Notes under the pieces: model-generated | Databases searched by the model: none | What the model saw: only the letters and a program-made list of their open reading frames with translations | What the model was told of the DNA's origin: nothing | Made by a program: the position numbers and the translations under genes | In this document: in pieces, positions 37,132 to 43,036 of the stretch | Layout: the number at the start of each line of letters is the position of its first letter | How positions within the stretch are numbered: the first letter of the stretch is position 1 | Source of the DNA: Pseudomonadota bacterium | GTDB taxonomy: Bacteria; Pseudomonadota; Gammaproteobacteria; Burkholderiales; Burkholderiaceae_C | Length of the DNA stretch: 55,758 bases | NCBI GenBank assembly: GCA_019351955.1 | Contig: JABBOE010000008.1 | Coordinates: 1 to 55,758 of the forward strand | Direction of reading: 5' to 3'

Positions 37132-37300
37132 GTCGAAATGGCAGTCAGGATGCGTTGCAGATTGGCGCATCGTTTATCCTGAGCGCGTTGCTTCCGTTTG
37201 ACGCCAGTGCAGGCGAGCCCGGCGGCCAGACGTTTTACCGCACCGCCGAGGTGGTTGGCGTGCCCAACCGGCGGGCGCGGACCCATCAATGGAGTTATTC

Positions 37301-38764
37301 GTGAATACACGTTTTGCCGCACTCGTCTTCTGTCTGGGCTTGGTTGCCCCGGTTGGCCCCATTGCCGCCGCGGCTCCCGCGACGGGGGCGAATTGCCCTG
37401 GCTCTTGCGGGTTACCTGACTTCACAGGTCTTGTGGAGAAGGTCGGCCCTTCCGTGGTCAACATCCGCACGTATAAGAACGTAGCGGTCGATCAGTCTCC
37501 GCAGATGGACGACCAGACGCGTGAATTCCTGCGCCGCTTTTTCGGGATTCCCGTGCCGCCCGCGGCCCCACCGGGGAGCGGTTCCGCGCCCAAGGGCGAG
37601 GGTCAGGAGCAGCCCACGGGCGTTGCATCAGGGTTCATCCTCAGTGCCGACGGATACGTCATGACCAATGCCCATGTGGTCGACGGCGCTGATGAAGTCA
37701 TGGTCACGCTCACCGACAAGCGAGAGTTCAAGGCTAAGGTGATCGGCACTGACAAACGCACGGATGTGGCGGTCTTGAAAATCGACGCCAAGAATTTGCC
37801 AATCGTGAGCATCGGCGACTCGAAGAAAATTAAGGTCGGCGAATGGGTGGTGGCCATCGGATCGCCGTTTGGGCTGGAGAATACGGTGACAGCCGGCATC
37901 GTCAGCGCCAAGGGCAGAGATACGGGCGACTATTCGCCGTTCATCCAGACCGACGTGGCGGTGAACCCAGGCAATTCGGGAGGGCCATTGATCAACATGC
38001 AGGGGCAGGTCGTCGGCATCAACTCGCAGATCTACAGCCGAACAGGCGGTTTCATGGGGATCTCCTTCGCGATTCCGATCGACGAGGCCATCCGTGTAGC
38101 GAACCAGCTCAAAACCACCGGCTATGTCGTGCGCGGCAAGATTGGTGTAGCCATTGACGGCGTTAGTCGCGAGCTGGCCGAGTCGATCGGATTGGGTAAG
38201 CCCATTGGGGCTCTGGTGCGCAGCGTGGAGGCCGGCGGCGCTGCCGACAAGGCGGGCATTCAAGATGGAGACATCATTACCAAGTTCGACGGCAAGACTG
38301 TCGAGCGCGCCACTGACTTGCCGCGCATCGTTGGGGAGGTCAAGCCAGGTACGCGTGTGCCGTTGCAGGTATTCCGCCGCGGGGCCGAGCGCACTTTGCA
38401 GGTGACCGTGGGCGCGTGGGCCAAGGACTCCGAAGTGGCAACCGCGAAACCCGCGCCGGCACCGAAGACGGGGGCCGAGAAAAGTCCACTTGGCGTGGCG
38501 GTCGTGGATTTGAACGATGCGCAGAAAAAGGAACTGGGCGTGAGATCTGGCGTTTTGATCGAAGCCTTGCAGGCCTCAGCTAGCGGCGACGGCCTGCGGG
38601 TCGGTGATGTGGTGACGGTGATGAACAATGTTGAAATCACCAGCGCCAAGCAGTTCAAGGAAATCGCGAACTCTTTGCCACCGGGAAAGCCCGTTGCATT
38701 GCTGGTGCGCCGCGGCGGTACAGCACAATTTATCTTGGTCAGGCCTAGCCCTCTCGTGAGGTGA
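37301..38764 (+). CDS. mucD: Periplasmic serine protease MucD (DegP-like)
   Basis: This 487-residue DegP/HtrA-family protease degrades misfolded envelope proteins. It has a signal peptide (about 1-26), the trypsin-like domain with catalytic His in TNAHVVDGA, Asp in RTDVAVLKI and Ser in NPGNSGGPL, and two PDZ domains (about 275-365 and 390-480). The start is GTG 37301, because GGAG lies six bases upstream of it; the in-frame ATG 37289 has no ribosome site. It is downstream of rpoE-rseA-rseB, as in other proteobacteria, with a 170-bp spacer that holds no recognisable gene. Confidence 0.93.
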   Translation: MNTRFAALVFCLGLVAPVGPIAAAAPATGANCPGSCGLPDFTGLVEKVGPSVVNIRTYKNVAVDQSPQMDDQTREFLRRFFGIPVPPAAPPGSGSAPKGEGQEQPTGVASGFILSADGYVMTNAHVVDGADEVMVTLTDKREFKAKVIGTDKRTDVAVLKIDAKNLPIVSIGDSKKIKVGEWVVAIGSPFGLENTVTAGIVSAKGRDTGDYSPFIQTDVAVNPGNSGGPLINMQGQVVGINSQIYSRTGGFMGISFAIPIDEAIRVANQLKTTGYVVRGKIGVAIDGVSRELAESIGLGKPIGALVRSVEAGGAADKAGIQDGDIITKFDGKTVERATDLPRIVGEVKPGTRVPLQVFRRGAERTLQVTVGAWAKDSEVATAKPAPAPKTGAEKSPLGVAVVDLNDAQKKELGVRSGVLIEALQASASGDGLRVGDVVTVMNNVEITSAKQFKEIANSLPPGKPVALLVRRGGTAQFILVRPSPLVR

Positions 38765-38841
38765 CGTGGATCTCGTGACTGCATGCTCTTGGTTGATATG
38801 TCGCTAGTCGACCTCGGCTACGCCGTCAATCGCACTGTGTT

Positions 38842-38870
38842 GTGACAATATGATCAATTTTTCGTCTAAT
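38842..38870 (+). promoter_or_regulatory. Strong sigma-70 promoter upstream of a structured RNA
   Basis: GTGACA (38842-38847) and TCTAAT (38865-38870) are separated by exactly 17 bases. Each matches the consensus at five of six positions, the best promoter in the window. The expected start of transcription is near 38877. The surrounding sequence is markedly AT-rich. Confidence 0.7.
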
Positions 38871-38876
38871 TTGGAT

Positions 38877-38996
38877 GCGGGTGGTGTGGTCTTGAGCGGG
38901 TTCGAACGCCAGGCGCGCTTAAAATAGAGGTCCAACAAGCAGTTGCCAAACGATTTTTGTTGGTAGGCGCGACCTGAATTGCCGCGCCTTTTTTTT
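38877..38996 (+). ncRNA. Candidate small RNA or lepA leader attenuator
   Basis: A transcript from the promoter at 38842-38870 to the intrinsic terminator at 38966-38996 would be about 120 nt. It contains a CCAACAA/TTGTTGG stem (38932-38938 with 38957-38963) and the terminator stem. GGCGCG occurs twice (38912-38917 and 38966-38971), and both copies are able to pair with CGCGCC (38983-38988), so two mutually exclusive structures are possible. AGGT (38928) can also pair with ACCT (38972). It lies between mucD and lepA, 130 bases ahead of lepA, where other Burkholderiales often have a small glutaredoxin-like gene. I do not recognise it as a known family. Confidence 0.55.
38966..38996 (+). terminator. 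Rho-independent terminator upstream of lepA
   Basis: GGCGCG pairs with CGCGCC across an 11-base loop, followed directly by eight T. It is the clearest intrinsic terminator in the window. The sequence ends the mucD transcript or the candidate small RNA. Confidence 0.8.
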
Positions 38997-39126
38997 GGTC
39001 TGTCCTGTGGCGCCGTAAGCCACAACCCCTCCTGCCCGCGAGGCCCATGCCTACACTGCCGGTCGCGCGGTCGCAGGGCCATATAAGTCCAAGCCGCAGG
39101 CTGCCTGCGAGTCGAACCGAGGTTGC

Positions 39127-40917
39127 ATGCAACTGATCCGCAATTTTTCCATCATCGCCCACATCGACCACGGCAAATCCACATTGGCCGATCGCCTGAT
39201 CCAGCGTTGCGGCGGTCTGTCGGACCGCGAGATGGAAAGCCAGGTCCTCGACTCCATGGACCTCGAGCGCGAGCGCGGAATCACCATCAAGGCACAGACA
39301 GCAGCGCTTTCCTACAAGGCCCGCGACGGGCAGATCTACCAACTCAATCTCATCGACACGCCCGGTCACGTGGACTTCAGCTACGAAGTGAGCCGCTCGC
39401 TCTCCGCCTGCGAGGGCGCGCTGCTGGTGGTGGACGCCAGTCAGGGCGTGGAGGCGCAGACGGTCGCCAACTGCTATACGGCAATCGAGCTGGGTGTGGA
39501 AGTCGTGCCGGTGCTCAACAAGATGGATCTTCCCCAGGCGGATCCCGATGCTGCGCGGCAGGAAATCGAGGATGTGATTGGGATTGACGCCTCCGATGCC
39601 CTTTTGGCTAGTGCCAAGACCGGCATGGGGATCGACGACATCCTGGAGGCCGTGATTGCACGCATTCCTCCGCCCAAGGGTGACCCGGACGCACCGCTCA
39701 AAGCATTGGTGATCGACTCCTGGTATGACAGCTACGTCGGCGTGGTGATGCTCGTGCGTGTCGTGGATGGCGCGCTCAAAGTGCGCGACAAAATCGCGCT
39801 CATGGCAACCGGTGCGCAATACAGCTGCGAACAGCTGGGTGTGTTCACGCCCAAGTCCGTCGCTCGTCAGCAACTTGCCGCGGGCGAGGTGGGCTTCGTT
39901 ATCGCGGCGATCAAGGAACTCAAGGGCGCGCGCGTGGGCGACACGGTCACGCTGGCGAACAGGCCTGCGGCGCAGGCTCTGCCGGGATTCAAGGAGGTAC
40001 AACCGCAAGTGTTTGCAGGGCTTTACCCGATCGAGTCCAACCAATATGACGCCTTACGCGATGCGCTTGAAAAGCTTCAGCTCAACGATGCGGCGCTGCA
40101 GTTTGAGCCTGAAGTCTCGTCAGCGCTTGGGTTTGGCTTCCGTTGCGGCTTTCTGGGGCTGCTGCACATGGATATCGTTCAAGAGCGCTTGGAGCGTGAG
40201 TACGACATGGACCTCATCACCACCGCGCCCTCGGTGGTCTACATGGTCCAGTTGCGCGATGGCACAGTGCTGACTGTGGATAATCCGTCCCGAATGCCAG
40301 ACGTGGGACGCATCGAGCAAATCCGCGAACCGATCGTCGAGGTCAAGCTGTTCATGCCACAGGAATACGTGGGGCCCGTCATGACCTTGTGCAACGCGAA
40401 GCGCGGGGTGCACAAGAACATGGCTTACATGGGGCGGCAGGTGCAACTTACGTATGAGATGCCGCTAGCGGAGATTGTTTTGGACTTCTTCGACAAGCTC
40501 AAATCCATCTCCCGCGGCTACGCCTCCATGGACTACCATTTTCTCGAGTATCGAGCGGCCGACGTGGTGAAGGTGGATATCCTGATCAACGGTGAACGGG
40601 TCGACGCGCTATCCATCATCGTGCACCGGGCGCAAAGCCAATACCGTGGCCGCGAGGTCACAGCAAAAATGCGCGAACTCATACCCCGGCAGATGTTCGA
40701 CGTCGCCATTCAGGCGTCAATCGGGGCGAACATCATCGCGCGTGAGACAATCAAAGCCATGCGCAAGAACGTGCTTGCCAAGTGTTATGGCGGCGACATT
40801 TCGCGCAAGCGCAAGCTCCTGGAAAAACAAAAAGCTGGCAAAAAACGCATGAAGCAGATCGGCACCGTTGAGGTGCCTCAGGAAGCGTTTCTGGCCATTC
40901 TCAAAGTCGAAGACTAA
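39127..40917 (+). CDS. lepA: Elongation factor 4 (LepA)
   Basis: LepA is a ribosome-bound GTPase that acts in translation initiation or elongation and under stress. The 596-residue protein has the GTPase domain (AHIDHGKST for G1, RGITIK for G2, DTPGHVDF for G3, NKMDLP for G4), EF-G-like domains II, III and V, and the LepA-specific C-terminal domain with [25 protein letters not shown]. The family start [14 protein letters not shown] fixes ATG 39127. It is cotranscribed with lepB, 17 bp downstream. Confidence 0.97.
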
Positions 40918-40934: not shown

Positions 40935-41855
40935 ATGGAAGCGCCGGCTGTCAATTTCACCCTCCTGCTGTTCATCCTCCTGCTCGTCACGGGCGCATTC
41001 TGGATCGCCGAGAAATTCCGGTTTTCACGTCAGCGCATTGCTGCTGCGAATGCAGTTGGGAACACCTTGCGTACACGGCGCGAGGAACTGCGCAAACAGG
41101 GGATCGCGCCCGATGCCAGCTTGAGTGACGAGCAGATCGCAGCCACGCGTGAGCGGCTGCTGCGCCAGCCTTGGTGGCTGGAGTGGACAGCAGGGCTGTT
41201 TCCGGTCATTGCGTTCGTCTTCTTGTTGCGCTCATTCGTGGCCGAGCCGTTCAAGATCCCCTCGGGTTCCATGGAGCCTACCCTCGTGCCCGGCGACCTA
41301 ATCCTTGTCAACAAGTTCGTGTACGGGCTGCGCTTGCCACTCATGCATGACCGTGTCACGCCCGGCGAAAACCCGCAGCGCGGCAACGTCATTGTGTTCC
41401 GTCTTCCCAAAGATCCTGCCATCGACTACATCAAGCGCATTGTGGGTACACCAGGCGACACGGTGTCTTACGAAAACAAGCAGCTCGTGATCAATGGCAA
41501 ATCCGTTGCCGAGAAGCCAGACGGCGAATGGTTTGATCCGCGGTCCATGGTGTACTACCAACAATATATTGAGACGTTGGGCGACACGGCGCACCGGATT
41601 TTGATCAATCCTCAGGCTCCACCCTACGTCATCGGTGGCCCCGACGATTTTCCGCACCGGGACCACTGCCACTACAACGCCGATGGCTTCGTGTGCAAGG
41701 TGCCAGCCGGAATGTACTTCGTGATGGGCGACAATCGCGATAATTCGCTCGATTCGCGTTATTGGGGCTTCGTGCCTGAGCGCAATATCGTCGGGAAGGC
41801 CTTCTTTGTCTGGATGAACTTCGGTGGCTTGAAGAACATCGGGCCGATCCACTGA
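40935..41855 (+). CDS. lepB: Signal peptidase I
   Basis: LepB cleaves signal peptides of exported proteins at the periplasmic face. The 306-residue protein has two hydrophobic segments (about 6-22 and 85-105), the serine nucleophile in IPSGSMEPT (about residue 113), the general-base lysine in YIKRIVGTPGD (about 170) and the conserved MGDNRDNSLDSRYWGFV. The loop between first and second helices is short. It follows lepA and precedes the DUF4845 gene. Confidence 0.95.
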   Translation: MEAPAVNFTLLLFILLLVTGAFWIAEKFRFSRQRIAAANAVGNTLRTRREELRKQGIAPDASLSDEQIAATRERLLRQPWWLEWTAGLFPVIAFVFLLRSFVAEPFKIPSGSMEPTLVPGDLILVNKFVYGLRLPLMHDRVTPGENPQRGNVIVFRLPKDPAIDYIKRIVGTPGDTVSYENKQLVINGKSVAEKPDGEWFDPRSMVYYQQYIETLGDTAHRILINPQAPPYVIGGPDDFPHRDHCHYNADGFVCKVPAGMYFVMGDNRDNSLDSRYWGFVPERNIVGKAFFVWMNFGGLKNIGPIH

Positions 41856-41922
41856 ACCGATCGCGCCTGATGCTGCTTGCCCGCAACGCTATTGTTCGTA
41901 TTTTTTCGACGAGGTTTTTTTC

Positions 41923-42273
41923 ATGACCCGTGCAGCAAAACAACGTGGCATCACCCTGATCGGCCTGATTTTTTGGGGGGCCATCATTGCTTTTCTTGTC
42001 GTCATCGGCATGCAGGCCGTGCCGGCCGTGCAGGAATCCTTTGCCGTACAGCGCGCGGTCGATGACGCGGCCAAGGCCGGACCCACCGTGGGCGATATCC
42101 GCAATGCCTTCGACAAGATGGCGGCGGTTGACTACATCAACACGGTGTCCGGCAAGGATCTGACGATCACCAAGGTTGATGGGAAGGTGGTGGTCTCTTT
42201 CGCCTATGACAAGGAAATCCATTTGGCCGGGCCTGCCTATCTGGTGCTGAAGTTCGCCGGAAAATCCCACTAG
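41923..42273 (+). CDS. DUF4845 membrane protein
   Basis: This 116-residue protein starts with a basic segment and QRGITLIGLIFWGAIIAFLVVIGMQAVP, a hydrophobic anchor that resembles a type IV pilin-like leader without the full prepilin site. The rest is a small globular domain ending IHLAGPAYLVLKFAGKSH. It belongs to DUF4845, which is regularly found between lepB and rnc in Betaproteobacteria; function is unknown. A T-rich stretch lies just upstream of the start. Confidence 0.85.
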   Translation: MTRAAKQRGITLIGLIFWGAIIAFLVVIGMQAVPAVQESFAVQRAVDDAAKAGPTVGDIRNAFDKMAAVDYINTVSGKDLTITKVDGKVVVSFAYDKEIHLAGPAYLVLKFAGKSH

Positions 42274-42289
42274 TCGCGCAGACGAGGCA

Positions 42290-43036
42290 TTGTTGCGCGT
42301 GATACCTTCTCCCGGTCTTTCCGAATTGCAGGCACGACTGCATTACGCGTTCCGAGATCAGTCCCTTTTGCGTCAGGCACTCACGCATCGCAGCTATAGC
42401 GCGCGCAATAACGAAAGGCTGGAATTCATCGGCGATTCCGTGCTTAACCTTGCCGTGGCATCGCTGTTATATGCGGATGGTCAAGCCAGCGAAGGCCATC
42501 TCTCCTACCTGCGTGCAAGCCTCGTGCGAGAGGAAGCGCTCGTCGAACTTGCACAGGATTTGGGCCTTGGTCAGTGCCTGTTGCTGGGTGAGGGGGAGCA
42601 GCGCAGCGGCGGCGGCACACGTGCATCCATCCTCGCCGATGCGTTGGAGGCGATCGTGGGCGCCGTGTACCTCGACGGTGGTTTCGTGCAGGCGCAGGCG
42701 CTCGCGGAGCGTTTATACCGCCCACGCCTGGATACGCTTGACATGCAGGCGAGCGCCAAGGACCCCAAGACGCGCCTGCAGGAGATCCTGCAGGGGCGCA
42801 AACTCAAGGTGCCGACCTATCATGTGGTGACCACCAGTGGACCTGCACACCAGCAACAGTTTCAGGTGCAATGTGATGTTGCCGAGTTGGGCCTGCGAAC
42901 TCTGGGTGAGGGGGCAAGCAGAAGAGCAGCTGAGCAGCAGGCAGCCGAGCGCATGCTCCCTTTGTTGAAGGCAGCGCCCGCGTCGGCGGGCAAGCCCGCT
43001 CACAAGGGTCGCTCATCCCAGGAGCCGCGCACATGA
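42290..43036 (+). CDS. rnc: Ribonuclease III
   Basis: RNase III cleaves double-stranded RNA in rRNA processing and antisense regulation. The 248-residue protein has the signature [16 protein letters not shown] near residue 40, the second metal-site segment with [15 protein letters not shown], and a C-terminal double-stranded-RNA-binding domain from about [11 protein letters not shown]. No ATG start is available: TTG 42290, TTG 42293 and GTG 42299 are all in frame, and GAGG at 42284-42287 fits TTG 42293 best. Its stop overlaps the era start (ATGA). Confidence 0.94.

Follow-up and report, generated by a model that had tools for sequence, protein, structure and literature searches.

That a conserved leader containing a terminator precedes lepA in the window (the whole stretch of 55,758 nucleotides of DNA that was analysed) is, at the level of sequence, close to certain. 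We consider it moderately probable that this element works in cis as an attenuator in the leader of lepA, and probably of a lepA-lepB-rnc operon, and it is likely that termination within it is regulated. This reading builds on the conservation of the parts, their order and their place, and on the fact that many relatives have no room for another promoter. According to the attenuator reading, transcription would start right behind a TAAAAT or TACAAT element and yield a short RNA; by default, polymerase would stop at the intrinsic terminator and release an RNA of approx. 65 nt, and lepA mRNA would be made only by polymerases that read through. In the window's family, the loop GCAGUUGCCA would be the most likely binding site of a modulator of read-through, whether protein, RNA or small molecule. 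The features of the locus are collected in Table 1.

Table 1. Positions of the leader, its predicted parts and the neighbouring genes in the window
Feature	Position	Strand	Basis or remark
Upstream neighbour, presumably a mucD/degP-like serine protease gene	37289..38764	+	ORF; tblastn matches in relatives
-35 place at 17-base spacing, weak	38897..38902	+	CGGGTT here; column frequencies, 147 sequences
-10 element TAAAAT (TACAAT in most other genera)	38920..38925	+	147/147 sequences
Leader RNA, predicted, approx. 65 nt	38932..38996	+	conserved block; z -3.5; model match 38926-38996
Stem 1, 5' arm CCAACAA	38932..38938	+	
Conserved loop GCAGTTGCCA	38939..38948	+	alignments and model loci
Stem 1, 3' arm TTGTTGG	38957..38963	+	
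Terminator hairpin GGCGCG...CGCGCC	38966..38988	+	stem kept
Terminator T-run, 8 T	38989..38996	+	conserved in alignment
Gene behind the leader, which we take to be lepA (translational GTPase LepA/EF4)	39127..40917	+	ORF; start from conserved N-terminus
Presumably lepB, a DUF4845-like gene and rnc	40935..43036	+	ORFs

The three genes behind lepA are probably co-transcribed with it; a lepA operon is stated for Bordetella pertussis in PMC8386462. The ORF list holds no convincing protein gene between the end of mucD (38764) and the start of lepA (39127), only mechanical minus-strand ORFs. Peptide-based solutions were considered and rejected: an upstream ORF overlapping the lepA start (TGATG) is short or lacks a start codon in several genomes, and a leader peptide starting at an ATG overlapping the -10 element would precede the predicted start site, with a frame that, by inspection, shifts relative to the loop between two sequence types.

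Judging from the alignments, the conserved RNA at this locus is real, but it is shorter than the sequence-only reading had proposed and appears to be served by another promoter. The most constant part of this promoter is the -10 element, which reads TA(A/C/G)AAT without exception in the 147 sequences compared (these comprise 115 distinct stretches, as certain genomes are represented twice) and was absent from the pattern of the collection scan that picked the loci. The commonest bases at the -35 place over the same 147 sequences are G-T/C-T-T-C-C. The 5' end of the leader RNA would lie near 38930-38933, with an uncertainty of a few bases, and the hairpin formed by CCAACAA and TTGTTGG (38932-38963) presents the loop GCAGUUGCCA. 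In the terminator, one pair varies among the G-C, G-U and A-U types.

Within the genus, 27 other genomes are available for comparison. Three of them (G021, G003 and G006) match most of the intergenic region, in two (G014 and G023) the match reaches past the terminator, and in 21 it is confined to a block within approx. 38907-39005; G016 has no match there, but a contig end truncates its lepA, and this case is therefore not counted as an absence. When the window's locus is aligned with 26 others of the genus and two from other genera, all 29 loci have in common either TAAAAT or TACAAT, followed by a short spacer, the region of the hairpin, the terminator and its T-run, whereas the flanks drift; stem 1 is weakened in L036 and L037. 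The loop GCAGTTGCC is invariant in 20 rows aligned by whole-region similarity, whereas in a second alignment its invariance arises by construction. Over all 147 sequences the loop bases CAAGCAGTTGCC are invariant; these bases were part of the selecting pattern for 118 rows, but the 29 others, found by region similarity, do not vary either. Among loci of the family and order samples that have lepA, GCAGTTGCC is found in 71 of 74 (L223, L224 and L254 differ), a figure to be read with the fact that these loci were found with a covariance model that itself contains the loop. A second sequence type, e.g., CCCAACTATCGCAGTTGCCATAGATTGTTGG, retains the loop with the remainder changed.

The conserved 66-nt RNA folds at -22.3 kcal/mol, compared with -13.6 kcal/mol in shuffles (z -3.5; none of 200 as good). 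In the alignment, 95.5% of cells in stem 1 and 96.6% in the terminator pair, and overall 96.1% of cells do so vs. 95.1% in column shuffles, none of 500 of which reached 96.1%. Two-sided changes amount to one pair and two cells, and at least as many occurred in 242 and 42, respectively, of the 500 shuffles; covariation is limited because the sequence is so conserved. The helices are supported by retained pairing and folding energy more than by covariation. Inspection revealed no antiterminator that would pair with the arms of the terminator.

These comparisons bear directly on the sequence-only reading, which had correctly recognised that an unannotated unit of promoter, RNA and terminator is associated with lepA; the stem CCAACAA/TTGTTGG that it described is present and conserved. 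The terminator that it named (GGCGCG...CGCGCC with eight T, 38966-38996) is also there. A simple scan, whose rules require an A as the second base of the -10 element and a loop no longer than 8, listed neither this terminator nor the proposed promoter, and its counts in the leader region equal those of shuffles. An alignment of relatives, which had been suggested as a check, confirmed the stems, the terminator and the T-run but not that promoter. GTGACA-17-TCTAAT (38842-38870) occurs in the sequence, yet it is not a conserved promoter: in the three nearest relatives (86, 89 and 92% identical), the position of TCTAAT is occupied by TCTCTT, ACGCAT and CCCGAT. The AT-rich GTGACA stretch (38835-38870) is partly kept, among relatives, in L010 and L011 only. 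Nor is the expected transcript of approx. 120 nt borne out, since the conserved block suggests approx. 65 nt. It had further been proposed that two copies of GGCGCG compete for CGCGCC. The second copy (38912-38917) exists and is kept in L010, but it is changed in L011, L012 and more distant relatives. Because two of the three nearest relatives have lost this left copy, and because its position is upstream of the predicted start site, the competition is rejected. A transcript that starts at approx. 38877 and switches between the two GGCGCG pairings must therefore be regarded as highly improbable; the pairing can form in the window sequence and one of the three nearest relatives, L010, keeps the left copy, but the -10 element of this model is changed in all three, and the 124-nt RNA that was folded for it has ordinary stability (z -1.1; 31 of 200 shuffles as good).

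The distribution of the leader within the family ties it closely to lepA. A pattern scan of a named genome collection gave at least 120 loci, of which L135 and L146 are chance matches. Among the at least 118 genuine loci, 116 have a same-strand lepA 2-420 nt downstream, at 87% identity or more except for L067 (65%); in L063 and L150, the sequence ends approx. 125-220 bases after the matched loop, before lepA would be reached. The genera among the matches listed include Roseateles, Aquabacterium, Leptothrix, Rubrivivax, Ideonella, Rhizobacter, Azohydromonas, Schlegelella, Thiomonas and others. The covariance search that had been proposed for related genomes was carried out with a model built from 48 sequences: at E 1e-4, it matches 130 of 150 sampled family genomes and 99 of 115 genera, and at least one of the 130 (L233 in G511, weak and without lepA) is a chance match. 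In an order sample of 399 genomes, the window and 13 other same-family genomes match, likewise with lepA downstream, and no same-family genome occurs among the listed 20 of 309 non-matching ones. Forty further places comprise 32 primary matches, 31 of them upstream of lepA, and 8 secondary matches, which are weak and none of which has lepA. Outside the family, none of the best 16 relatives under the model (L172-L187) exceeds 36.4 bits; they resemble plain terminators, with the exception of L184, which has a CAAGCAGTTGCC stem without a terminator and without lepA.

The 20 family genomes missed by the model all carry lepA, and GCAGTTGCC is absent from their available upstream stretch. Among the missed members with enough upstream sequence, 15 of 19 keep the -10 element and the terminator before lepA, with the loop altered or gone. 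Several such leaders (L257, L258, L266, L267, L269, L270 and L272-L274) have no GCAGTTGCCA loop and show GGGTTG shortly after the -10 element, often as GGGTTGACC; the GGGTTG leader perhaps contains a replaced recognition element. With a wider setting of the layout test described below, the family groups give 29/29, 106/115, 73/74 and 15/19, some genomes being shared between groups.

An argument for a role in cis comes from the spacing between the terminator and the gene. In 16 loci of the named collection (L044, L048, L049, L059, L065, L076, L081, L083, L088, L090, L091, L108, L123, L139, L142 and L147), the U-run directly precedes the lepA start codon (gap 2), which is fixed there by the conserved N-terminus. 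Since this leaves no space for a promoter, lepA mRNA in these loci must cross the terminator. Several of the 16 belong to Aquabacterium, other loci of which have gaps of 110-121 nt. In the window itself, the end of the T-run lies 130 nt before the start codon; the no-space argument is not directly applicable there, and a second promoter is possible. Six of the 16 loci were inspected at length and have no evident Shine-Dalgarno sequence. It could be argued from the adjacency of U-run and AUG, together with this lack, that the hairpin and U-run are not a terminator but a ribosome standby or S1-binding site controlling lepA translation, which we consider improbable, given that the hairpin stands 50-130 nt from the start codon in the window and many relatives. 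As a separate observation, AGA AAT recurs as lepA codons 5-6 in L160-L169, and several of these have an upstream stretch like TCAATCACTT; such features may point to low structure or to an additional element.

The layout, as distinct from the sequence, reaches beyond the family. It was scored as a terminator-like hairpin with TAnAAT 8-90 bases before it, within 180 bases before the start codon. Among 68 lepA genes from other families of Burkholderiales, whose leader sequence differs from that of the window's family, the hairpin is present in 37 and the full layout in 29, compared with 5.1 and 0.05, respectively, in the shuffled background (mean of 20 rounds of dinucleotide shuffling). The layout fails in 39 of the 68, but the test is strict on loop size and some misses may be false, e.g., L315, which has a long loop. 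As a control, 444 other genes, taken from the window and from the loci of 8 kb and 3 kb, include 29 with a hairpin and none with both; it should be noted that these genes form 77 protein clusters (the largest with 74 members) rather than an independent set, that most of them belong to the window's family and that their starts were chosen mechanically. Outside the order, where the 29 best-scoring genomes of 53 further matching ones were used, the layout occurs in 3. Among the 29 layout-positive genes of other families, 18 have a T-run that ends at most 20 nt before the start codon. The stem GGGCAC...GTGCCC occurs in 23 of the 68 leaders and is not found elsewhere in these loci (103,098 bases), which hold few terminators, so the stem may not differ from terminators at large. 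A terminator stem AAGGGCAC...GTGCCCTT recurs in lepA leaders across the other Burkholderiales families, e.g., L325, L331, L318, L363 and L366.

This order-wide comparison favours a cis leader of lepA, and a predicted promoter does lie upstream of a terminator that precedes the gene. Of the earlier suggestion of an attenuator or riboswitch, the leader part has gained ground; regulated attenuation is likely, and the conserved hairpin loop may be, at most, a candidate for the aptamer of a strict riboswitch. It might instead be that termination is partial and constitutive, with a hairpin that sets a low, fixed lepA level and ends the upstream mucD operon while nothing is sensed. We regard this as rather unlikely, yet several observations agree with it: an antiterminator was not found, many other families have a leader that seems too short to hold an aptamer, and the simple scan lists no other plus-strand terminator between mucD and that of the leader. 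What constitutive termination leaves unexplained is the conservation of the loop in the 71 of 74 sampled loci mentioned above, found with a model that contains it.

Conservation of the loop is also the starting point for the other main alternative, and the sequence-only reading was right to place the choice between an attenuator and a trans-acting small RNA at the centre. Hfq-binding small RNAs are typically compact and have a U-rich 3' end. The RNA described here resembles Hfq-dependent trans-acting small RNAs in its compactness, exposed conserved loop and U-rich 3' end, and a promoter of its own and a Rho-independent terminator are both predicted. It could pair with mRNAs via the exposed GCAGUUGCCA loop; its place before lepA would then be inherited, and read-through would supply lepA. 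The loop is conserved beyond the needs of pairing, the two hairpins are compact and end in eight U, and the RNA folds far better than shuffles, all of which would suit such a role. Nevertheless, this remains a minority possibility in our view, if a serious one. The RNA differs from Hfq-dependent small RNAs in that its location is locked to lepA: it was not convincingly found elsewhere, given that the 8 secondary matches are weak and without lepA. It also has no targets found by exact complement, as exact loop complements are not enriched in 28 genus genomes (27 further sites vs. 36 for the reversed control), and relatives without the loop mostly keep the promoter and terminator. Complements of an 11-mer in 40 family genomes number 156 vs. 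107, which is evidence neither way, as the leader's own copies are included and codon bias is not removed. Pairing of the loop with the lepA operon was rejected, the sole exact 10-mer complement in the window being the locus itself; with one mismatch allowed, the window has 11 sites vs. 7.8 expected.

Terminator-containing leaders of translation and ribosome genes are a known system, and the present target, a translation factor with rnc behind it, is similar, although an rRNA-like binding site is not established for this leader. Rfam 15 gave no match at the gathering score in the window or in the loci of six relatives. At a permissive threshold, ncr1241 and ar9 match weakly, through the terminator-like hairpin only, and differ from the leader in bits far below the gathering score (16.8 of 60 and 14.2 of 45, respectively). 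The leader would thus add an RNA family without an Rfam 15 match. A literature search, which covered titles and the starts of abstracts and few subscription papers, returned nothing on a lepA leader or small RNA here. In Burkholderia cenocepacia, 82 5'UTRs give short transcripts by processing or attenuation, and those due to attenuation have a promoter, a short leader and a terminator hairpin as here; for the present leader, in contrast, no ligand or antiterminator is known, and the main text of that paper does not name lepA (PMC5688073). Nor is lepA named in the available text of PMC4603805 and PMC10987360.

It is tempting to speculate, though we do so tentatively and with clear doubt, that in much of Burkholderiales premature termination puts an operon for ribosome maturation (LepA, RNase III and, downstream, Era) under the control of an RNA sensor not yet described, that in the window's family (approx. 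100 genera) the signal is received via the GCAGUUGCCA hairpin loop, and that the released 65-nt RNA may also act in trans. To our knowledge, neither the control of lepA expression nor the purpose of EF4 has been settled. A leader that is conserved over the family, and whose layout much of the order retains, offers a concrete handle on the control of lepA.
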